64,000 bases of DNA from Closterium sp. NIES-65 (Eukaryota > Streptophyta > Zygnematophyceae > Desmidiales > Closteriaceae): the NCBI GenBank assembly GCA_948144175.1, contig CANXME010002160.1, positions 2,737,501-2,801,500 on the forward strand. The letters are read 5' to 3'. Of this stretch, positions 3,494-61,452 are shown one piece after another. The position numbers were made by a program, and so were the translations under genes. The stretch's first letter is position 1, and each line of letters begins with the position of its first letter. The notes below the pieces were generated by a model. The model was not told the DNA's origin, did no database searches, and saw nothing but the letters and a program-made list of their open reading frames with translations.

Positions 3494-4714
3494 GAAATCT
3501 TCGTCGAGCTCCCGCACGGCTCCCACGGCGAACCCAACCGAGTCTGTCAACTGCTTAAGTCGCTCTACGGGATCAAGCAGGCACCGCGACTGTGGCAGCA
3601 GTACCTACACGCCCGCCTCATCCGCATCGGTTTCAAACAACTCCCACATGACCAGGGCATGTATCGCCTCACAAAGGGAAGCGACTACGTTCTCCTAATC
3701 GTCTACGTGGATGATCTCCTCTACATTGGGTCAACCGACGGCATCGCCACGTGGTTCGAAGGGGAGCTTCAGAAAGACCTCACGATCACGGTTTCTTCTA
3801 CCGTTACGCAGTACCTCGGGCTCAACATCCGCGAAGAAGAAAACGCAATCTATCTAAGCGCCGAGAAATACGCCGACACGATCGCCAAGCGCTTCTCGCT
3901 CACACCTACCGCTATCGCCACGCCTTACCGCTACACGTCAGGAACCGAAAAGGGACGACCTACTCTACTCAAGCCCGCCGGCATACGCGATTATCAGAAG
4001 AAGCTCGGGTGTCTTCTCTTCGCAGCAGTCACATGCCGACCCGACTTATCCTACTCCGCGAGCCAGCTCGCCACCTATCTCAAGAAGCCTGAAGCAGAGC
4101 ATCTTGCGGAACTCGATCGCGCTCTCCACTACTTCGTCACCACCGCGACGATCGGATTAACTTATCACAAAAACGCAACTACACCGACCAAGCTAATCGG
4201 CTACGTCGACGCCGATCACGCCGGCGACTCCGATAACAGGCGCTCACGCACCGGCTATGTCTACCGCCTCGAGCCTATCGGTCCTATCTCCTGGCAGTCG
4301 AGTAAGCAGGAATTAATCGCACTGTCTTCAGCTGAAGCGGAATGTATCGCACTCTGCTCAGCCACCAAGGAGGGACTTTACCTTCGCAAACTGCTGGAAG
4401 AAGCGAAGTTAGCCGAGTTACCCAGCTTCACCGTGTTCTGCGACAACCAGTCAGCAATTCGCATCGCCAACAAGAACGGCTTCGCAAACAGGACGAAACA
4501 CATCGCCCTGCGCTATTTCTTCGTGAAGGACGAGATCGAGAAGGGGAAACTCGATCTGTCATACTGTCCCACGTCTGAGATGGCAGCCGATTACTTGACC
4601 AAGAAGCTCGGAAAGCAGAAGTTCGAATACTGCATGCTGCTGACTGGACAAGGCCACGTCACCAGCAGCGACACTCCAGAAGCGAAGGGGAGTGTTGGAA
4701 ACAATAAGTCTTAA
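3494..4714 (+). pseudogene. pol: Copia family-B RT/RNase H, 5'-truncated by insertion
   Basis: The frame is open for about 400 codons and stops only at TAA 4712-4714, which lies 20 bp inside the LTR. It carries the RT block LYGIKQAPRLW, the catalytic LLIVYVDDLLYIG near 3696-3733, the Copia signature RRSRTGYVYRLEPIGPISW and an RNase H region with ALSSAEAE and CDNQSA. No stop or frameshift is visible, so this part of the gene looks young, but it lacks Gag, protease, integrase and the RT N-terminus. The ATG at 3443 lies in the A1 LTR and is not the natural start. Confidence 0.85.
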
Positions 4715-26223: not shown

Positions 26224-32299
<6,076 letters not shown>

Positions 32300-33499: not shown

Positions 33500-33620
33500 T
33501 GTCAAATTATAATATTGTGTAGGCTATAGTGGGGTAGCACATATGGGGTACACATTTCTAGGGTTGCATATTTGTATCACTTCCATTCCTTAGTCATTCA
33601 TTCTCGTTCTACTTTCCTCA
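33500..33620 (+). repeat. A4 5' LTR (121 bp)
   Basis: TGTCAAATTATA to TTTCCTCA; identical to 40927-41047. Confidence 0.95.
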
Positions 33621-33649
33621 TGGTATCGAGCAGGTTCCCCCTTGGGAAC
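33621..33649 (+). promoter_or_regulatory. A4 PBS and adjacent tetraloop hairpin
   Basis: TGGTATCGAGCAG directly follows the LTR. At 33634-33649 GTTCCC-CCTT-GGGAAC can form a perfect 6-bp stem with a 4-nt loop. Confidence 0.75.
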
Positions 33650-34838
33650 TGTGCCTAGGGCCCACCACATCGAGTTTCAATTTTTTTTTTTTTCCTCTCC
33701 TGCCCGAAGCGCGCTCCGCCCGAGTCGCGCTCCGGGCTCTCACCTCGCCGAGCCGCCCTAGCGGCCCCCTACGCCCTAGCGGCCCCGCCGCCCTTCGTTT
33801 CGGCCCCGCCGCCCTTTAGTGCGGCCCCGCCGCCCGTCACAGCGGCCCTGTCGCCCCGCATCGCGGCCCCGCCGCCCGTCTCCGCGGCCTCGCCGCCCGT
33901 TGCTGCGGCCCCGCCCCTACTCAGCGGCCCCGCCGCCCTTCTCCTCAGCGGCCCCGCCGCCCTGCTCAGCGGCCCCGCCGCCCTACTCAGCGGCCCCGCC
34001 GCCCTTCTCCTCAGCGGCCCCGCCGCCCTACTCAGCGGCCCCGCCGCCCTACTCAACGGCCCCGCCGCCCTTCTCCTCAGCGGCTCCGCCGCCCTACTCA
34101 GCGGCCCCGCCGCCCTACTCAGCGGCCCCGCCGCCCTACTCAGCGGCCCCGCTGCCCTTCTCCTCAGCGGCCCCGCCGCCCTACTCAGCGGCCCCGCCGC
34201 CCTTCTACTCAGCGGCCCCGCCGCCCTTCTCCTCAGCGGCCCCGCCGCCCTACTCAGCGGCCCTGCCGCCCTTCTCCTCAGCGGCCCCGCCGTCCTTCTC
34301 CTCAGCGGCCCCGCCGCCCTACTCAGCGGCCTCGCCGCCCTTCTCCTCAGCGGCCCCGCCGCCCTGCTCAGGGGCCCCGCCGCCCTACTCAGCGGCCCCG
34401 CCGCCCTTCCGCAGCGGCCTCGCCGCCCTTCTCAGCGGCCCAGCCGCCCCTTGCACCAGCGGCCCTGCCGCCCTACACCGCCCGCGCCGCCCGAGCCGCC
34501 CGAACCGCCCGAGCCTCTCGAGCCGCCCGACCTGCCCAAGCTGCCCGAGCCGCCCGAGCCGCCCGACTCACCTGAGCCGCCCGAGCCGCCCGACCAGCCC
34601 GAGCCGCCCGAACCGCCCGAGCCGCCCGAGCCACCCGAGCCGCCTGAGCCGCCCGAGCCGCCTGAGGAGCCGAGCCGCTGGTGCCACGGAGCCGCAATTG
34701 CTGCAGTGCCGTCCGAGCACCCGTGTTGCCGTGCTGCTGTACCGCTGAGCTGCCCGACCCGCCCTGCCTGGTGAGAGCAGCGCTTCTGTCACTGCACTGC
34801 CCCTGTCCTACAGTTGGTACTGCTAGTCCACTGTTGTC
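33650..34838 (+). other. A4 GC-rich leader with CAGCGGCCCCGCCGCCC repeats
   Basis: No gene. From 33770 to about 34470 CAGCGGCCCCGCCGCCCTA-type units repeat in tandem; from 34480 to 34680 GAGCCGCCC units follow. Apparent long proline/serine ORFs on both strands come from this composition. Confidence 0.75.
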
Positions 34839-35634
34839 ATGGCTACCCCCAGTGTTCTCGCTTTTGACGCTGAGGGTCGAGCCATTGACTTTGAGGTTTG
34901 GGTGGATGACCTGCAGCTTTTCCTACAGTGCGATAGGGCAGACGGTCTTTCCCTCTTTGACCTCACCTCTAGTGCTTCCCCTGCCCCTGCTGCCGATGCC
35001 GACGCCACTGGTCGCTCCCAGTGGGCCACTCGCGATGCTGCTGCACGTCTCGCTGTGCGTCGCCACCTGCCTACCACTGAGCGCGCGCACTTTAGCCAGT
35101 ACAAGAGTGCTCAGACCTTGTACGACGCTGTCGTTGCACGCTACTCCTCCCCTGCCACTGCTGCACTGAGCCGCCTCATGCTACCGTACCTCTTTCCTGA
35201 CCTTGCTGCCTTTCCCACAGTCGCTGACCTCATTACGCACCTCCGCACTAGTGACACTCGCTACCGCGCCGCGCTTCCTGCTGAGTTCTGCGCCAAGAAC
35301 CCCCCCCCCCATGTACATCACTCTCTATTATATAGTCACCCGCCTCCCTAACTCCCTTCGTGTAGTCAGGGACCACTTCCTCTCAGTCTGTCCCACCACT
35401 CTCACTGTTGACCTCCTAGAGAAGGCCCTCCTAGCGGCGGAGAAGAGCATAGTCGCTGTAGGAGCCTCTCGTGGTGACCCTCGCACCCCCATCTTTGAGG
35501 GGTGTTCCCCTTCCCCCCTGTTGCCCTCTGTCGCCTCTGCTGCTGCGGCCGACCTCGTTGGTCTTGAGTCGGTCGGTGCGGCGTCTGCCCCTAGCGGGAG
35601 ACGCCGCTCTGGCAAGGTCAAGGGGGGCAAGGGC

Positions 35635-35845
35635 GCGGGTGGGGCTAGCGGGGGTGGTGGAGGTGGCGGTGGGGGCGGCGGGGGGAGTGGGGGTGGCGGT
35701 GGGAGTGGTGGCGGGGGTGGAGGTGGCAGTGGCAGCGGCGGAGGCGGAGGCGGCGGTGGCGGTAGCGGTGGGAGCGGAGGCGGCGGTGGCGGCGGAGGTG
35801 GAGGCGGCGGTGGTGGAGGATGTGGAGCTGGTCGGGGTGGTTCTT
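35635..35845 (+). repeat. Gly-rich GGTGGAGGCGGC tract in A4 Gag
   Basis: It encodes about 65 residues that are nearly all Gly with a few Ser, between the Gag core and the zinc module. A6 has the same tract at 55695-55925 and A2 a remnant at 13618-13737. Confidence 0.85.
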
Positions 35846-37865
35846 CTCAGCGGAGCGGCTCCGGGAGTGGTCAGCGCCAGCAGCAGCAGCAGCAGCAGCG
35901 TTCTCGGGACATCCCCCCTCCTCAGCAGCTCCGTGAGTGGTACACGCAGCGTCAGCGTGGTGGGGGTTTTGGCCCGTGCACCTACGTCCTTCGCTCCGGC
36001 GACCACGCGGGTGAGCAGTGTGGGGGTGCTCACCCCACCCAGCGCTGCTTTGGCCGCTTGACGGACGCTTGGCGTCAGCAGTTCCCGGAGGCTAGTGAGA
36101 TCCCCCGCTGGGGAGAGCTGTCTAGGGCAGGCATAGCTATCTTTGATCTTGACTTTGATGCTATCCTTGCTGCCATGTATGCTGTGACTATTAGTGATGA
36201 GGGTGGCTGTTACCGGTGTTTCCCGCCCGACCCGGGCATTGGTACTGCTGCTCTAGGTGCCAGTGCGTCCGCGCCCTCAGGTGCTGGTGAGTTTGCGCTC
36301 TTAGGTACCACGTCGGCTTCGGCCTCCCTCACCTTCACACTTGACTCAGGGGCTTCTCGCTCCTTCTTTCGAGACCGCACCACACTCACGCCGCTTGGTC
36401 GGCCAGTTGCACTCTCCCTGGCAAACCCCTCTGGGGGTCCTATCCTCTCTCACTTCTCCACTGTCCTCTCGTGTCCGGCTGCCCCCTCTGGCACCTTGTC
36501 TGGTCTTTACCTCCCCTCGTTCTCTACAAACTTTGTGAGTGGTGCTGACCTGCAGGATACGGGGGTTCACCAGTTCACTCCTGCGAGTCAGCGGGTGACC
36601 CACTGCACGGACGCTCGGACAGGCCGACACCTGGCCACGTTTACACGTCGGCCGGGGTCGAGCCTGTACACACTGACCACTGCGTCTCCTCCAGTCACTG
36701 CGTTTGGTCAGGTAGCTGCGTCGGGTCAGGTGTTTGTTGCAGCGTCCGGGTCTGGTCCTGAGTCTGGCCCCTGCTCGTGTCGCCTCCTGTCTCACGAGAC
36801 TCTCCTCTGGCACCACCGTCTTGGTCACCCCTCCTTGCCTCGTCTCCGAGGCATGGCTTCCCGTGTCCTTGTCTCTAGTCTTCCCCGGTCCCTCCCTCCC
36901 CTTCCTCCGGGGCTTGGTCCTTCCTGTGTCCCCTGTGTCGAGGGGCGGCTCCGAGCTGCCCCTCACTCCTCTCAGTTTCCCCCGACAGTAGCCCCGCTGC
37001 AGATGCTTCACATGGACGTGTGGGGCCCGGCCCGCGTCCGTGGACAGGGTCACGAGCGCTACTTCCTGCTGGTGGTTGACGACTACTCGCGTTACACCAC
37101 AGTCTTCCCCTTGCGCAGCAAGGGTGATGTCGCTGAGGTGTTGATCGACTGGATCCGCGCAGCTCGTCTCCAGCTCAGGATGAGCTTCGGCTCGGACTTT
37201 CGTGTTCTGCGTCTGCACTCTGACCGAGGCGGAGAGTTCTCCTCTGGCCTTCTGCGAGCCTACTGTCGTGCGCGAGGCATCCGCCAGACCTTTACGCTTC
37301 CGGACTCTCCACAGCAAAATGGGATTGCTGAGCGCCGCATTGGCCTGGTCATGGACGTCGCTCGTACGTCCATGATGCATGCGGCTGCCCCCCATTTTCT
37401 GTGGCCGTTTGCGGTTCGCTACGCAGCGCATCAGATCAACCTTCACCCCAGGGTCTCCAGGGCGGAGACCTCCCCAGCCTTGCTGTGGACGGGGAAGGTT
37501 GGCGATGCGTCTGCGTTCCGTGTCTGGGGATCTCGGGCGTTTGTCTGCGACTTGTCTGCGGACAAACTGTCCCCTCGTGCTGCTCCCTGTGTCTTCCTTG
37601 GCTTCCCCCCTGACGCCCCTGGGTGGCAGTTCTACCACCCCACCTCTCGTCGTGTTCTGACCTCCCAGGACGTCACGTTTGACGAGTCAGTACCCTACTA
37701 CCGCCTCTTCCCCTACCTCACTCCTTCCCTCCCCCCGCCACCGCACTTCCTTGTGCTAGGTCCCCCCTGGTAGACCCCCTCCCCCCTCAGGGTCCTGCCC
37801 CTTCAGGTGTGTCCCAGGTAGATGCAGTCGAGCCGGTCGAGGTTGCTGGTGACTCTGGTACTGCT

Positions 37866-38130
37866 GCGGGTGCTGAGCCTGGGGGTGCTGACTCTGGGGG
37901 TGCTGCGCGCGTGGATGCTGAGCCTGGGGGTGCTGAGTCTGGGGGTGCTGCGACTGGGGGTGCTGAGCCTGGGGGTGCTGAGCCTGGGGGTGCTACGACT
38001 GGGGGTGCTGAGCCTGGGGGTGCTACAACTGGGGGTGCTGAGCCTGGGGGTCCTTCGCTTGGGGGTGCTGCGTCTGGAGGTGCTGAGCCTGGGGGTGCTG
38101 AGTCTGGAGCTACTGAGCCTGGGGGTGCGG
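37866..38130 (+). repeat. (GGAEP)n minisatellite in A4
   Basis: About 17 units of 15 bp between integrase and RT, with more variation than in A2. Confidence 0.88.
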
Positions 38131-40926
38131 AGCCCGCGGCCGCTGGACCTGCTCGTGTGGCGTCTGGCGGTGCTGGGCCTGGTGGTTCTCCGGGTGCTTC
38201 GTCTCGGCGGGAGCCACTCTCTCCACAGGAGCTGCGTGACTGCTTTGCCCGGCGCTGAGGGTGCTGGTGCCGCCGGTCTCGGAGGTGCTAGTCCTGCGAG
38301 TGCTACTGGAGTAGGAGCTGCTGAGGGTGTTGGCGCTGAGGCTACTGCTGTCAGTCCTGGCGGCGGTCCTGCTGCGGGTGCTGCTCGTGCTGCTGGAGGT
38401 ACTGGAGCTGGAGGTGCTGTTGACGCTGATGCTGCCGCTGGTGGTGCTGGTGCTGTTCCTGCTGTGTCTGGAGTCGCCGCGCGGCCTCGGCCGTACTTTG
38501 TTCCGCTCCTTCAGCAGGTTCTTGGTCTTCCTCCTCCCTTAGAGTGTCCACCGCCTGTCCAGTCGCAGTCACAGTTACCGCCGGCCTCCCCACTGCCTTC
38601 TCCTTCTCCGTACACTGGTCCTACTGGAGGTCTTGCTGAGCGTCGTGAGCCTGCGTCTCGTCCTGCGTCGCCTGTTCGTGCTGCTTGCACTAGTGGTCGC
38701 AGTTCGCGTCAGCGTCCTCCTCCTGTCCCTGGCACGCACCGGATGTCTCTGCGTCCGTCCACTGCTCCTCTGCGTGCCCCTTTGCCCTCTCCTCCTGAGT
38801 CCTCTCTTCCTGCACTTGCCGACCCTGAGTCGGACTCTCTTCGTGCTGCCCGTCCTACTGTCACGCGTCTCCTTGCTACTGTCGTCACTAACCCCTCCTT
38901 TGAGTCCAGTGCTGCGTCTGCTCTTGTTGCTGAGCTCGTCGACTTTGCTGCTCGCTGTCGTCTAGACTACGCTGCTAGTCTTGTTGCTGAGTCTGCGTCT
39001 GTCTGTCCTCCGTCCATCGAGGGTGAGTGTGCTCTTGGCACGGACGTCCTTGAGGACAGGCAGGAGGAGTTCCAGTGTCTCGCTGCTGCTTCACCTCATC
39101 TCGCGTCCGTACTGCTTACCCCTGAGGGAGACCCGGATGCACTAGACATCCCGACTCCGCGCTCTTACGCGGAGGCAGTAGAGGGTCCCTACTCCTCTCA
39201 GTGGCAGGCAGCTATGGATGCAGAGATGGCTTCCTGGAAGTCCACAGGCACCTACGTTGACGCGGTTCCCCCTCCTGGGGCGAACATCGTCAGTGGCATG
39301 TGGATCTTCAGGGTGAAGCGGCCGCCGGGCTCTCCATCTGTCTTCAAGGCGCGGTACGTGGCTCGTGGCTTCAGTCAGCGGCAGGGAGTTGACTACTTTC
39401 AGACCTTCTCTCCCACCCCGAAGATGACCACTCTTCGGGTGCTGCTACACGTAGCCGAGCTTCACTCCCTTGACTTCAGCACTTCTTTCCTGCAGGGTAG
39501 CCTGCACGAGGAGATCTGGTTGCGCCGTCCACCTGGCTTCACTGGGACTTTCCCTCTTGGCACCCAGTGGAGCCTTCGACGGCCAGTCTACGGTCTCCGC
39601 CAGGCACCGCGCGAGTGGCACGACACACTGAGGACTACACTTGCGGCTCTTGGGTTTGCTCCCTCTAATGCTGACCCGTCGCTGTTTCTACGCACCGACA
39701 CCTCTCTGCCGCCGTTCTACATCCTCGTGTACGTCGACGACTTGGACTTTGCCACAGCTGACACTGCTGGACTCGCCCACGTGAAGTCCGAGCTGCAGAA
39801 GAGACACACGTGCACAGACCTGGGTGAACTGCGCAGCTACCTTGGCTTGCAGATCACCCGGGACAGAGCACGCCGCACCATTACCCTGACTCAGTCACAC
39901 ATGGTGCAGCAGGTCCTTCAGCGCTTCGGCTTCACGTACTCCTCGCCTGAGGCCACTCCTCTGTCTACTCGCCACTCGCTCTCAGCTCTGCCTTCGGATG
40001 AGTCCGTAGAGTCGAGTGGCCCGTATGCAGAGCTTGTTGGCTACCTCATGTACCTGATGACCTGCACACGACCTGACCTTGCATACCCTCTTAGCATTCT
40101 TGCACGCTATGTTGCTCCTGGGAGACACAGACCGGAGCACATGGCTGCAGCGAAGAGGGTGTTGCGCTACTTGTGCAGTACGTCGGGCATGGGGCTAGTG
40201 CTTGGAGGGCGGAGTCCAGTGGTCCTCACTGGGCACGCGGACGCTTCTTGGGCAGACGACCAGGCTACGCAGCGGTCGTCACAGGGTTACACCTTCAGCC
40301 TTGGTTCCGGCTCTGTTTCGTGGCGGGCTACTCGCTCGTCTTCTGTTCTCGGCTCCAGTTGTGAGGCTGAGATCTACGCCGGGGCCATGGCTGCACAGGA
40401 GCTTCGCTGGCTTACCTACCTGCTGACTGACCTCGGAGAGCCGCCTCGTTTTCCTCCGGTGCTGTACGTAGACAACAAGGCCATGCTAGCCTTGTGTCGG
40501 GAGCAGCGCCTGGAGCACAGAACGAAGCACATTGCTCTTCGCTACTTTCTTGCTCGTGAGTTGCAGCAGCGCGGTTAGTTGCGACTTGCGTACGTGGCCT
40601 TTGAGGCCAACACTGCTGATGTTTTCACCAAGGCACTTCCGCCTTGTGATCATCAGCGCTTCTGCACTCAGCTGGGTCTTGTGCCTGTCTTGCCTCACTT
40701 GCTCACCCCTTGACCTTGCTTGTACTCTTACATATATATATATATATATACCTGCTCTTGCTTGTTTAGCCTTATATATATGTGTACTCCTGCATGTGAA
40801 CTGGCCTTGTGGCCTTGACCTTGTGCTCGGACTGTGTGGTGACGTTGTGATCCACCCTGAGCTTTGTCTGCTTTGCTTGACTGGTCTTGTGACCCCTTGT
40901 TCTCCCCCACTTTGCCTATGGGGGTT

Positions 40927-41047
40927 TGTCAAATTATAATATTGTGTAGGCTATAGTGGGGTAGCACATATGGGGTACACATTTCTAGGGTTGCATATTT
41001 GTATCACTTCCATTCCTTAGTCATTCATTCTCGTTCTACTTTCCTCA
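40927..41047 (+). repeat. A4 3' LTR (121 bp)
   Basis: Identical to the 5' LTR; followed by the TSD GGCGA. Confidence 0.95.
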
Positions 41048-41462
41048 GGCGATGGGAGAGAGAGCGCGAAGGCGACGGGAGAGAGAGCGCAAGGCGACGG
41101 GAGAGAGAGCTTGGAGGCGACGGGAGAGAGAGCGCGGAGGCGACGGGAGAGAGAGCGCGTTAGGCGACGGGAGAGAGAGCGCGAAGGCGACAGGAGAGTG
41201 ATAGGCGATGCGCGAGAGAGGAAGGCGACCGGAAAACGCAACGCGATGATTGCGCGAGGCTTGGAAACACAATGCGCTTATACATGATGTATTACGCAGA
41301 AGCGCGAAGTTCATGATTACGCGCCTAGTCGGAAATTGTCGAGGTCCTAAGCTACTCAATGTTAGGCAGAAAGCTGGAATGATTAGTTCTCACTCTGCTA
41401 TGTGAATAAACTAGTGACTAGAGGAAGTGGGTGATGAACCCAGGACCAGCTTGAAATTGGAG
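41048..41462 (+). repeat. 23-bp minisatellite right of A4, then unassigned DNA
   Basis: GGCGACGGGAGAGAGAGCGC plus GAA units repeat about 6-7 times up to about 41200. This continues the array in which A4 inserted. From 41220 to 41462 nothing is recognised. Confidence 0.75.
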
Positions 41463-41603
41463 TGTCAGAATCCCAACCACTAGACCATTGGGATAAAAGG
41501 GCTTGTTTCAGTAGCGGGTCAGTGCGCCCATAACCCCCCAGGCGAACGCGCCTGTAACCCTCTCCAGGATCAATCGGGCATCCACAGTGCAGATCTACTG
41601 ACA
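41463..41603 (-). repeat. C1 3' LTR (141 bp)
   Basis: Nearly identical to 41697-41837 and to the solo LTR at 52745-52885. Confidence 0.92.
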
Positions 41604-41659
41604 CCCCCCCACAATGGGAGGCCCAGGACTAAGCACAGCAGCAACGGCCTACATGTGCA

Positions 41660-41728
41660 TACACCAGGAATCGAACCCGAGACCGCTCTGATACCATGTC
41701 AGAATCCCAACCACTAGACCATTGGGAT
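41660..41728 (-). other. tRNA-like sequence spanning the C1 5' LTR/PBS junction
   Basis: On the minus strand: A-box-like TGGTCTAGTGG (41711-41721), then a perfect 5-bp arm TCTGA-CATGGTA-TCAGA with a 7-nt loop, then a perfect B box GGTTCGATTCC (41667-41677) in a T-arm-like context. The A-to-B spacing is 33 nt, as in a tRNA gene. The order resembles a proline-type tRNA, but no acceptor stem is visible. Instead ATCCCAA/TTGGGAT pairs around the A box. Confidence 0.65.
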
Positions 41729-41837
41729 AAAAGGGCTTGTTTCAGTAGCGGGTCAGTGCGCCCATAACCCCCCAGACGAACGCGCCTGTAACCCTCTCCA
41801 GGATCAATCTGGCATTCACAGTGCAGATCTACTGACA
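41697..41837 (-). repeat. C1 5' LTR (141 bp)
   Basis: TGTCAG to CTGACA; followed by the TSD TGGAG. Confidence 0.92.
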
Positions 41838-42314
41838 TGGAGTTGGGCATGGCGACGGAAAAGCATCGCCAGGGAACGGTCGTGCGGATGCAGCACGCAC
41901 ATATGCGACAGCTGATATGAACCTCGAAAATCGTTTTGGCGGGAGCCATTTTTTTTTTAGATTGGTGTGAGCCAATCAGATTACTTCAACCTGCCTAACT
42001 GTTTTGTTTGGAACAGTGTTGTATCAGCCGATCTCATCGCAGCGATTTCAAGGTGGGACGGCCTTCACTATTTTATATTTCGGTTCAAGTCTTATAAATG
42101 GAAATCGGGAGGAATCAAAGTCCTGTTGCAAAAAGATGGTCGAAACTACTTGTCCAATCCGATTGGCTCCCGCGAGATTTTCAGATCGCACAGCAGAAAA
42201 TCAGAGCGCCAAAGTTTCGTGCTTCTGAAAATTTCCACGTTTGATCACGCGACACCAACTGGTTGGGTTCCGGTTGGGTCCAACCGGAACTTCAAGTTGG
42301 ACTTGGGTTCATTT
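41838..42314. other. Spacer between C1 and N1, nothing recognised
   Basis: No supported gene; a 125-codon open frame at 41967-42344 has no recognisable features and runs into the N1 LTR. Near 42258-42300 there are TTGGGTCCAACC inverted motifs reminiscent of the dispersed repeat. Confidence 0.45.
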
Positions 42315-42443
42315 TGTCAAAGTTTGAAGAAGAAAGAGGGTTGAACTAGCAGAAATGGGGATACAAATAGCAAACCCTAGAAGGGTTGTACTCGCTATAG
42401 AGCACCCCACTACAGGCTAGAACATAAGAATAATATTCTGACA
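42315..42443 (-). repeat. N1 3' LTR (129 bp)
   Basis: One substitution from the other LTR (G/A at the eighth base). Confidence 0.92.
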
Positions 42444-43398
42444 CACCCCCATAGCCAAAGTGGGGTGTAATCAGCAGAGCAGGCAAAGCAAAACAAGCTC
42501 AGGGTGGATCACAATGTCACCACACATTCTGAGCACAAGTTCAAGAAGAAATAGTTTAGAGTTCACAATTATAAGCAAAGCTAGTGGTAGTCACAACGGG
42601 CAAGTGAGGAGGAAGAGGGAGAGTGAGGGGAGAGGAGACAGGAGGCGACGGCTGAAGCTGCAGACACACGGGCAACAGGAGGCAGACTGGCACAGCGGCT
42701 ACCGGACAGCGCCCGGAGTACAGGAGTAACAGGCCCCGCGGCTCAAATAGCGGCGGACGGGCAACGGACCCACGGGCGGCTGGCACAGCTGGCTACGACT
42801 GGGCTACCGGGACAGCGCCCCGGACTACAGGTGCTGCGGACGACAAACTGGCAACCTCCGCTCAACCTCCCACACACAGTCCCACCCCCCTCATACACAC
42901 CCACTGCTACACCGCTAGCTCCACTCCCACGCACCCCCCTTAAACCCTAAACCCAGCCTCCCACACAACCACCCCCCTCAGCGACAGCTGCAGCAGTGGG
43001 AGACGAAGGAGGAGGAGGAGAAAGGGAGGAAGGCACACCGGCCACCCCCATACCTGCCACCCCACAGCAAGCGGCCCCCTCAGGTCGCCTCGACGGACGA
43101 CGGGAAATGGGGGGGAGGGGAGAAAAGGGGGGGGGGGGCCGGTGCCGCGACGAGGGGCGGGGCCGCGACGGTCGGGGCGGGGCCGCGTCGTAGGGGAGAA
43201 GCCCGCCGCGCGCCCCGGGGCGCACAGCGGGCAATGAACCGCCGCGCGCCTCGGGGCGCACGGCGGGCAGAAAACCGCCGCGCGCCTCGGGGCGCACGGC
43301 GGGATGAAAAAAATGCCGCACGCCACGGGGCGTGCGGCTCAGAGAGTAGTAGCAGTAGTAGCAGCGGAAGCTAAGCGGTGGTAAGCCCACCCACAGGA

Positions 43399-43431
43399 TC
43401 GATCCAGGGGGATCGACCTGCTCTGATAGCA
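43399..43431 (-). promoter_or_regulatory. N1 PBS and hairpin
   Basis: On the minus strand TGCTATCAGAGCAGG follows the LTR, then TCGATCC-CCCT-GGATCGA (43399-43416) forms a perfect 7-bp stem with a 4-nt loop. Confidence 0.72.
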
Positions 43432-43560
43432 TGTCAAAATTTGAAGAAGAAAGAGGGTTGAACTAGCAGAAATGGGGATACAAATAGCAAACCCTAGAAG
43501 GGTTGTACTCGCTATAGAGCACCCCACTACAGGCTAGAACATAAGAATAATATTCTGACA
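43432..43560 (-). repeat. N1 5' LTR (129 bp)
   Basis: TGTCAAAATTTG to ATTCTGACA in plus orientation. Confidence 0.92.
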
Positions 43561-44185
43561 CATTTCACGCTCTGATTGATCGTTCCAACATTAGCCGATA
43601 TCCACAACTATCACGGTAGCTTGCGTAGTTACTTCACACGAATACTCCGGCACCACTCTCACAAGTCCATCTGCCCTCCGCTAACAAGCCTTCGCCACGT
43701 TCTCATTCCACCCTTTTCGTCGCCCTCGCTGTCGCGCTCAGCTGGCCCTTTGCCCTCGCTATCTCCCCCCTCTATTCGTCGCGCTCGCTATCTCCTCTCC
43801 TTCCCCGCCGCCCTTGCTATCTCCCCTCCCTCTCCGCCGCGCTCGCTATCTCCCCTCCCTCTCCGCCGCGCACGCTATCTCCCCTCCCCTTCCCGTCGTG
43901 CTCGCTATCTCCCTTCCCCTTCCCGTCGCGCTCGCTATTTCCCCTTCCCGCCGCGTCACGCTCTCGCTATTTCCCCTCCCCTTTCCGTCGTGCTCGCTAT
44001 TTCCCCTGCCCTTCTCGTCACGCTCGCTATTTTGCCTCCCCTTTGCGTCGTGCTCGCTATTTCCCCTCCCCTTCCCGTCGCACTCGCTATATCCCCTCCC
44101 CTTCCCGTCGCCTTCACTATCTCCCCTCCCCTTTCCGTCGCTCTCGCTATTTCCCCTCCCCATCCCGTCGTGCTCGCTATTTCAC
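43561..44185. repeat. Unassigned DNA then CCCTTCCCGTCGCGCTCGCT minisatellite left of A5
   Basis: 43561-43700 holds nothing recognised. From about 43720, units of 27-30 bp around CCCGTCGCGCTCGCTATTTC repeat up to the A5 boundary and resume at 51245. Confidence 0.75.
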
Positions 44186-52580: not shown

Positions 52581-53380
52581 TATTTCAAGAAATACATTGT
52601 ACCAATAATCAGTCTGAGGGCATTTCGAATCGGAGTAAGAGACCTGGAGATTGTCATTACCCGTCTGGCTGCGAGAAGGGCGGGGTTGTACATCACCGAG
52701 AGTAACATTCTTAAAAAGGACCTGATGGAGCGGGCGGCGAAGCTTGTCAGAATCCCAACCACTAGACCATTGGGATAAAAGGGCTTGTTTCAGTAGCGGG
52801 TCAGTGCGCCCATAACCCCCCAGGCGAACGCGCCTGTAACCCTCTCCAGGATCAATCGGGCATCCACAGTGCAGATCTTCTGACAAAGCTTCCTCTGGGA
52901 ACTGATTCCTTCGGAGCCCATGAAAAGCTGTTTAAATACTGGGAAGGTGGCAGCATCCGGTGGAAACAGACGTGTGAGAGCCTCTCTGGCTCGCCGCTGT
53001 GTCTGCGTGCCCCGGTTACGTCACGGGTGGAGATTCTGCAGGAAAGGATCGCTTTTAACAAAAACATTTTGCTGCGCGGCACCACACCGATTGGGGGGCA
53101 AAAGGACGCCAGGAAGCTGTGGGACCTGCGCCTATGTGACTTGTTCACACAGAACGAGGCTGGGGAGCTGTCCCAAAAATATGCGGCGGAGCTAACGGAT
53201 CATTTGGGCAGCAGCGGCCCTGCGAGGTTAGCACTGAAGGCGGTGAGAACTCACCCTGCAAAGTGGTGCAAGGAGCTGGGGTTCCTGACTGTGCTTCCTC
53301 GCTCGGCTAACTCTCCTCAACAGCTGCAAATTTTGGTGGATGGGCGCATCGTCCCTGTTACAATCCCAAATGGGACTTAG
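52581..53380 (+). pseudogene. Probable LINE (non-LTR retrotransposon) ORF2 C-terminal fragment, split by solo LTR C2
   Basis: If the solo LTR and one TSD copy (52745-52889, or the equivalent 52746-52890) are removed, one frame of 217 codons runs to TAG 53378-53380. Visible segments include SLRAFRIGVRDLEIVITRL, TSRVEILQERIAFNKNILL and GGQKDARKLWDLRLCDLF. The order of a PTSR-type segment, an FN-x-N-I segment and a W-x-L-x-L-x-DL segment is what I associate with the region after the RT of LINE ORF2. That assignment is by pattern only. No RT catalytic motif is present in the fragment. Confidence 0.5.
52745..52885 (-). mobile_element. Solo LTR C2 of the miniature family
   Basis: A 141-bp copy of the C1 LTR with a perfect TSD AAGCT (52740-52744 and 52886-52890). 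No second LTR or interior is present, so the element was reduced by LTR-LTR recombination. It lies inside the LINE-like frame. Confidence 0.92.
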
Positions 53381-60159: not shown

Positions 60160-60208
60160 CCTTGCTTGTAATGTGATCTTTCTATACCTGCACTTGCCTG
60201 TTTACCTT

Positions 60209-60309
60209 ATAGCGAGTACAACCCAATTAGGGTTTCTTATATGTATGCCAATTGCTGCTAGTGCAACCCCCCCTTTCTGCTTCTAACTTTCTACTTCTTC
60301 TTTCTGCCA
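60209..60309 (+). repeat. N2 5' LTR remnant
   Basis: It matches the last 100 bp or so of 61310-61452, starting at TAGCGAGTACAACCC. Confidence 0.83.
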
Positions 60310-61309
60310 TGCTATGAGAGCCTGTCCTTCCTTGGCCTGTGGGCCCACCAACCTGCTTCCGCTGCTACTCGATCTGTCGCACGCTCCGTGGCGTGCGACG
60401 TCGGCGCGCGGCGGTTTACTCTCTGGCGCACGCCCCGAGGCGCGCGGCCCCTTTTCTTCCTGGCGCGCCGGCCCCGCTGGACCTGCGCGCCGCACCCTGT
60501 CGACCCTCGTGTCGCCTCAGGGGACCCGCGCGCCACCCCCGTTGACCCTCGCGTCGCCCCCGGGGACCCACGCGCCACCCCTGGAGCCGTGCGCGACCCC
60601 CCCGCTGCCTCGTCGCGGCGCCCTGGGGAGCCGCGCGCGGCCCCTCGCTGCCCCGTGGTGGCGCCGTGGGGGCCGCACGCCGTCCCCCTCGCCGTCCCCC
60701 GCGCTCCTACCCCGTGCCACCCGTTTTAGGGTTTGGGGGTGGGGAGTGTGGGGGTGGCGGTTGTGGGGGTGCCGGTTGTGTGCGCTGTCCCCTACTCCTC
60801 CTCCTCCTCCTCCTCCGTCTCCCGCTGCTGCAGCTGCCGCTTAGGGGGGTGGGTATGTGGGAGCCGAAGGAGTGGTGCTAGGGGGGTGATGTGGGAGTGG
60901 AGCTAGGGGTACAGCAAGGAGTGTGTGAAAGGGGGGTGGGACAATTGGGGGAGGTTGAGCGGAGGCTGTCGTCTTGTCGTCCGCAGCACCTGTAGTTCGG
61001 GGCGCTGTCCTGGTAGCCCAGAGAGCCTGCTGTGCCTGTCGCCCGTGGGTCCGTTGCTCTTGCTGCTCCTCGTAGCCGCCGAGCCAATTACTCCAGTAGT
61101 CCGGGGCGCTGTCCCGGTAGCCACTGTGTGCACGTTCCTGTTGCCCGTGTGTCTGCAGCTTCAGCCGTCGTCTCCAATCTTCCCTCCCCTCACAGTCCCT
61201 CCTCCTCCTCACTTGCCCTCTGTGAATACCTCTAGCTCAGCTTATAATTGTGAACTATTGCTATGCCTGCTCATTGTGCTGATTACACCCCACTTTGGCT
61301 ATGGGGGTG

Positions 61310-61452
61310 TGTCAGAATGTTATTATTGTCTAGCTTGCAGTGGGGTACTCTATAGCGAGTACAACCCAATTAGAGTTTCCTATATGTATGCCAACTGCTG
61401 CTAGTGCAACCCCTCCTTTCTGCTTCTAACTTTCAACTTCTTGTTTCTGACA
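61310..61452 (+). repeat. N2 3' LTR (143 bp)
   Basis: TGTCAGAATGTT to TTTCTGACA, after the tract ATGGGGGTG. Confidence 0.87.

Follow-up and report, generated by a model that had tools for sequence, protein, structure and literature searches.

A high-copy TRIM of Closterium sp. NIES-65 with a putative tRNA-type promoter across the junction of its LTR and PBS

Introduction

A contig of Closterium sp. NIES-65 carries a 375-bp LTR element, in which letters resembling the A and B boxes of a tRNA gene are located on the two sides of the junction between the LTR and the PBS. The question raised by this locus is whether these letters represent a promoter for Pol III, from where they were derived, and by what proteins an element of this size could be mobilised. 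Judged from the sequence comparisons described below, it is fairly probable (roughly 0.6) that the element is a high-copy, non-autonomous TRIM, which carries a tRNA-type promoter spanning the LTR/PBS seam, is transcribed by Pol III, and is mobilised by Copia elements. The window, that is the whole stretch of 64,000 nucleotides analysed here, has a GC content of 59.7% and belongs to a genome of 874 Mb.

Results and Discussion

Structure of the element

The complete element is located at positions 41463-41837, with its sense orientation on the minus strand (Table 1). Two LTRs of 141 bp each, 98% identical to each other and with the ends TGTCAG...CTGACA, enclose an internal region of 93 bp, and the whole is flanked by a TSD of 5 bp. 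All the parts of a complete LTR element claimed in the first-pass annotation, including PBS, G7 tract and TSD TGGAG, were located. No ORF of at least 130 aa is present inside the 375-bp element in the ORF list. The element is a TRIM by its length of less than 1,000 bp, two LTRs, noncoding nature, internal region bounded by PBS and PPT, large number of copies, and TSD of fixed length, which was 5 bp in 22 of the 28 whole-element copies described below.

Table 1. Positions of the TRIM features and of a related solo LTR in the window
Feature	Position	Strand	Basis or remark
5' LTR, TGTCAG...CTGACA	41697..41837	-	sequence, LTR alignment
Internal region, 93 bp	41604..41696	-	sequence
3' LTR	41463..41603	-	sequence, LTR alignment
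TSD TGGAG, left	41458..41462	.	sequence
TSD TGGAG, right	41838..41842	.	sequence
A box TGGTCTAGTGG, U5 end of 5' LTR	41711..41721	-	pattern search; 3'-LTR copy at 41477-41487
PBS TGGTATCAGAGC	41685..41696	-	complements 3' end of host tRNA-iMet plus CCA
B box GGTTCGATTCC, outside LTR	41667..41677	-	pattern search
Anticodon-like arm TCTGA-CATGGTA-TCAGA, spanning LTR/PBS seam	41687..41703	-	read from sequence
Predicted R region AAGCCCTTTT in 5' LTR, CAA-type start plus T4	41729..41738	-	inferred
T4 in 3' LTR, predicted Pol III terminator	41495..41498	-	inferred
G7 tract (PPT) adjoining 3' LTR	41604..41610	-	sequence
Solo LTR of the same family, TSD AAGCT of 5 bp; A box present, B box absent	52745..52885	-	

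The A box (TGGTCTAGTGG) lies within the LTR, 14 bp from its end, and the B box (GGTTCGATTCC) within the internal region, the gap between the two boxes being 33 nt, as had been claimed for the minus strand. When both strands of the 64 kb were scanned, this was the only strict A-B pair at a distance of 28-45 nt; 200 dinucleotide shuffles of the window contained 0.005 such pairs on average. The window copy is atypical in its T-arm, having CCTGG for CCCGG, while 22 of the 28 whole-element copies read CGGGTTCGA(A/T)TCCCGG.

Copies in the genome and conservation of the boxes

Search of the 874-Mb genome with the whole element gave 661 candidate places, of which 40 were scored, with 42 matches listed. 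Short patterns at up to three mismatches gave 4,594 matches for the LTR-end/PBS junction, 7,508 for the middle of the LTR, and 5,045 for the T-arm (B-box) block, the reversed control of each pattern giving none. An exact match to the LTR end was absent from the viral_contigs and genome_contigs sets. With a loose pattern of PBS plus B box, one match was found in each, on a viral contig (L001) and in Kistimonas (L002).

A total of 28 whole-element copies, the best BLAST hits with L006b, L013b and L030b left out, were compared. The exact A box was found in all 28 copies, T4 in 27, the strict B box in 26, the exact PBS in 25, and both the exact anticodon-like arm TCTGACATGGTATCAGA and the exact sequence CAAGCCCTTTT in 24 each, and the gap between A and B boxes was 33 nt in every one of the 26 copies having both. 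Many different TSDs were observed among the element copies read. The 28 copies are partly dependent on each other, as flanking letters are common to L011, L012 and L017, to L014 and L016, and to L023 and L026, and thus duplicated or allelic contigs may contribute to the genome-wide numbers.

The first 30 places found with the LTR-end/PBS pattern at zero mismatches (L061-L090) include 35 junctions. The strict B box was present in 26 of these; with one mismatch allowed, a B box was found in 32, the other three being two chimeras and one mutated copy. The gap between A and B boxes was 33 nt in 19 junctions and 36 nt in 13. The longer gap belongs mostly to a second type of element, S2, with an internal region of 64-71 bp and a GAA/AAA insert behind the PBS, and both internal types are mixed in a few loci (L076, L088 and L090). 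Tandem runs in the order LTR-internal-LTR-internal-LTR were also found, for instance at L006, L013, L014, L016, L066, L089 and L090. In the S2 copies L120, L127, L129 and L030, the LTR ends with CTGAGA instead of CTGACA, and the copy L030b has a TSD.

Among 20 LTRs (L111-L130) taken from the 100 places listed for the LTR-mid pattern, the A box and T4 are each present in 18. A PBS with up to two mismatches follows five of these LTRs, all five with the B box, and no B box was detected within the next approximately 55 bases of the 15 LTRs without PBS, two of which (L114 and L121) carry TGGTATAGAGC with a different leader. Among eight elements (L157-L164) taken from the 100 places listed for the T-arm block, the A box is exact in three, agrees with the consensus in four and is absent as a consensus box from the other four, and T4 is present in five. 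The conservation of boxes and arm across copies holds for most of the 28 whole-element copies and fails for the A box in half of the T-arm-sampled elements. The A and B boxes are common yet not universal among the copies read. In L129, L162 and L164, the A box is replaced by TGGTCTAGTGACTGG, perhaps representing a sublineage.

The difference in variability between U3 and U5 within the family was estimated for 37 S1 and 11 S2 elements within the size limits, but set aside as evidence, because many loci had been chosen on U5 letters. A test of divergence in R-U5 against U3, in which one entry of 43/43 was set by hand to 42/43 for the CTGAGA ending of L120, L127 and L129, gave p 0.02, the sample being in part a selected one.

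Relationship of the junction to tRNA

By pattern search, host nuclear tRNA-like places were found in numbers of 81 for Glu and 43 for Pro (up to three mismatches), 32 for iMet (up to two mismatches), and 40 for Gly. A total of 11 host tRNA genes, of Glu, Pro and iMet only, were compared with the element, each being called by ARAGORN as the expected tRNA. In L004, an intact copy, the junction aligned best, and colinearly, with positions 8-64 of a host tRNA-Pro(CGG), with a score of 55, above the maximum of 42 in 2,000 shuffles. The scores by gene were 43-55 for five Pro, 42 for Glu, and 16-18 for iMet. With the junction divided at the PBS, the scores were 26 for the LTR half and 27 for the post-PBS half, host Pro being the best match of both. 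The 99% marks of the half-junction shuffles were 23 and 24, respectively, and the maxima were 27 and 27. Since each half exceeds the 99% mark without exceeding the maximum, the significance of each half alone is only moderate. The alignment shows that a tRNA-Pro-like segment (positions 8-64), the isotype being selected from host Glu, Pro and iMet only, crosses the LTR/PBS seam, with the D-arm and A box in the LTR and the T-arm and B box in the internal region.

In a panel of 27 human and plant tRNAs, human Glu was the best match to the LTR half (score 37, shuffle maximum 27) and also to the post-PBS half (score 29, shuffle mean 16 and maximum 33 of 1,000). The score of 29 was reached by one of 2,000 random window segments, overlap with the element being allowed. 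As human Glu is the best in this panel and few host isotypes were compared, the assignment of the parent to Pro is provisional. A human-type tRNA-Glu was rejected as the parent: 36 host pattern places resemble the TRIM LTR end, and all three places read were LTR copies. Host tRNA-Glu was also rejected, as it differs in the D-arm and scores below the best Pro genes.

The junction is not a functional tRNA gene. Its scoring as a tRNA, proposed as a check of the initial description, gave no support: ARAGORN at default settings called no tRNA at the element, and with intron options all the candidates it gave had introns of 27-302 nt. Likewise, cmscan listed no tRNA family at the element, one lower-scoring overlapping match of the same clan, possibly tRNA, being omitted from its output, and detected a weak beta_tmRNA match of 6.1 bits (clan CL00001) over the B box. 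An acceptor stem is absent from the element sequence, and the RNA fold of lowest energy differs from the cloverleaf (-22.9 versus -11.2 kcal/mol). Search of the genome with RF00005 gave 63 matches, and the surroundings of L031 and L047 were examined. L047 encodes ChlI beside other plastid-like ORFs, and was assigned to the plastid from the presence of chlI. A tRNA-Lys called by ARAGORN at 3617-3714 of the window lies inside a Copia RT ORF and is probably false.

The anticodon-like arm between the two boxes, which had been emphasised in the first-pass annotation, is present with the stem TCTGA/TCAGA and a loop of 7 nt. It is, however, weak and non-independent evidence for tRNA origin, because the LTR terminus, found also in LTRs without A box, forms the 5' half of the arm, and the PBS forms the 3' half. 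The idea of a Cassandra-like miniature element with a tRNA-type promoter is supported at the sequence level on other grounds, namely, the tRNA-Pro similarity flanking the PBS, the thousands of matches in the genome and the boxes kept in most copies read.

Relationship to Copia elements

The sequence GATTCTGACA followed by TGGTATAGAGC was found, at up to three mismatches, at 2,034 places, some of which are TRIM LTRs. When 12 of these places were read, eight carried a different LTR, which by eye resembles that of Copia; all eight have the terminus GATTCTGACA in common with the TRIM, and none has the A box. The other four carry the TRIM LTR on leaders of the kind found at these eight places, without B box, and with the exact A box in three. 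Chimeras are found in both directions: TRIM LTRs are joined in L071 and L086 to internal regions resembling those of the elements at 42315-43562 and 60208-61452 of the window, and L158 appears by eye to be a reverse chimera, its LTR end being different and Copia-like. In L154, the Copia pol letters of the window are matched with 87-94% identity by a stretch 1.1-3.6 kb behind a TRIM-LTR junction (L156). This stretch ends in Copia-LTR-like letters, and thus L154 may be a recombinant. Both the terminus common to the A-box-less LTRs of Copia look and the TRIM/Copia chimeras indicate that Copia is the likely mobiliser of the TRIM. The leaders of L144-L153 begin directly behind the PBS with a GGTCC/GGACC hairpin plus a run of T, at which Pol III transcription starting in the LTR would be terminated.

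Proposed promoter, transcription and origin

If the boxes are used, TFIIIC would bind the A and B boxes together only at the seam of the 5' LTR. Transcription by Pol III would then start at the CAA of CAAGCCC, 9-11 nt before the tRNA-like start; a CAA triplet located within the 10 nt upstream of an Arabidopsis tRNA gene generally serves as a start site (PMC11700998). Transcription as far as the 3'-LTR T4 would yield an RNA of about 244 nt with an R region of about 10 nt (AAGCCCTTTT). No other T4 is present inside this predicted unit in any of the 28 whole-element copies; as 3,873 of 5,000 shuffles also lack T4, this scarcity is not significant and was not taken as evidence. The RNA would be packaged by Copia proteins, primed with tRNA-iMet, and integrated, template switching being included in this putative cycle. 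Since both boxes are downstream of the predicted start, A within U5 and B beyond the PBS, full-length copies would regenerate the promoter. As only the A box is within the LTR, the promoter would be complete only at the 5' LTR-PBS seam, and 3' LTRs and solo LTRs, retaining the A box only, would be deprived of it.

With respect to the origin, we tentatively suggest that an LTR-end/PBS module of Copia replaced the anticodon arm in a tRNA-Pro-like sequence. The suggestion is based on the colinear alignment with tRNA-Pro and on the letters GATTCT and AGAG, which, by eye, are common to tRNA-Pro, TRIM and Copia-type sequences at the two joints. Such a birth, by which a single segment would serve as a promoter for Pol III, as attachment end and as primer site, and solo LTRs would be promoterless by design, is conceivable, with the odds somewhat against it.

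The element could instead be an ordinary TRIM of Copia descent transcribed by Pol II, its tRNA-like letters being a relic or unused. We regard this as rather unlikely, even though it agrees with the LTRs of Copia look that share the TRIM terminus and lack the A box (8/8 read), with the absence of the consensus A box from four of the eight T-arm-sampled elements, and with the TRIM LTRs found on leaders without B box. What it leaves unaccounted for is that the distance between A and B boxes is tRNA-like (33 or 36 nt) in both internal types, whereas U3 and the central part of the internal region are divergent, for U3 against R-U5 according to the above test on the partly selected sample.

The B box might also be an extended PBS, i.e. 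complementary to the T-arm of tRNA-iMet, and resemble a B box because T-arms are near-palindromic. The PBS and the letters next to it do align with the iMet complement (score 27, with one gap of 4 nt), and a neighbouring element has AGGTCGATCC behind its PBS-like site; the post-PBS half alone, however, scores only 15 with the iMet complement against 27 with sense tRNA-Pro, making this the weaker account, and the A box at tRNA spacing is left unexplained. We consider it improbable. That an LTR element was inserted by chance across a tRNA gene at one place is hardly credible: nothing beyond the single window copy speaks for such a local artefact, and it is refuted by the same junction in thousands of places across the genome and by the many different TSDs of the copies that were read.

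Comparison with known elements

By description, Helenus, which had not been mentioned in the first-pass annotation, is the nearest relative of the present element. Helenus comprises TRIMs with tRNA-derived sequence in the LTR, and the name TRIMp3 was proposed for TRIMs with a Pol III promoter (Kojima 2024; PMC10886601). Both are TRIMs with PBS and PPT, Helenus ranging from 311 to 1,263 bp, and share tRNA-like A and B boxes, solo LTRs, a TSD of 5 bp, as in plants and fungi, the link to Copia, as in fungi, and tandem arrays, as reported for the zebrafish family LTR-11_DR (PMC10886601). The similarity to a tRNA gene over the boxes also agrees, given the alignment with tRNA-Pro. The difference is in the layout: in Helenus, both boxes are inside the LTR, and hence both LTRs and solo LTRs carry them (PMC10886601), while in the present element the B box is internal and occurs once per element. 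The sole plant listed for Helenus is Selaginella moellendorffii, with an LTR of 120 bp and an internal region of 85 bp (PMC10886601); this member was compared by description only. Table 1 of Kojima (PMC10886601) contains no entry for the algal lineage of the present element. If transcribed by Pol III, the element would work like Helenus, yet without its defining layout.

Cassandra is also a TRIM with Pol III signals and a short R, 18 bp in its case (PMC10886601), and shares the PBS TGGTATCAGAGC and tandem arrays (PMC7215508). It differs in having a 5S rRNA promoter in the LTR, in contrast to the tRNA-type letters across the seam; no Rfam family reached the gathering score in the window, and no 5S rRNA was included among the weak matches. 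Ajax, a TRIM with a promoter from a small-RNA gene, differs likewise in that the promoter is 5S-derived and inside the LTR, and in its occurrence in nemerteans (PMC10886601). tRNA-derived SINEs have an A/B-box head, and the RNA predicted for the present element is also short, but SINEs have no LTRs and rely on non-LTR elements (PMC10886601), whereas the present element has LTRs, PBS and 5-bp TSDs.

In a limited literature search, no published report of a seam-spanning promoter was found. If the proposed reading is true, LTR elements with a tRNA promoter have a second layout, in which the promoter straddles the LTR border. Such elements are predicted to be silenced at once by LTR-LTR recombination, and their families would be missed by A/B-box searches restricted to LTRs. 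Their birth would also become accessible to testing, template switching of Copia RNA with tRNA-like RNA being proposed instead of insertion of a SINE into an LTR.

Surroundings of the element

Six ORFs of the window were tested for domains; four are of Copia type (RVT_2 or gag/Pol_BBD) and one is GRAS. The GRAS gene, taken together with ChlI on L047, points to a streptophyte alga, possibly of the zygnematophytes. The elements at 42315-43562 and 60208-61452 are related LTR elements of about 1.25 kb, with LTRs of 131 bp (99% identical) and 102 bp (93% identical), PBS-like sequences (TGCTATCAGAGC/TGCTATGAGAGC), and ORFs of up to 176 aa. The stretch 33500-41047 contains Copia and has terminal repeats of 121 bp; as these are 100% identical, it is probably a recent insertion. 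Near the GRAS domain at 31580-32299, a CTG tract of 111 units with 96% matches is located at 30227-30559.
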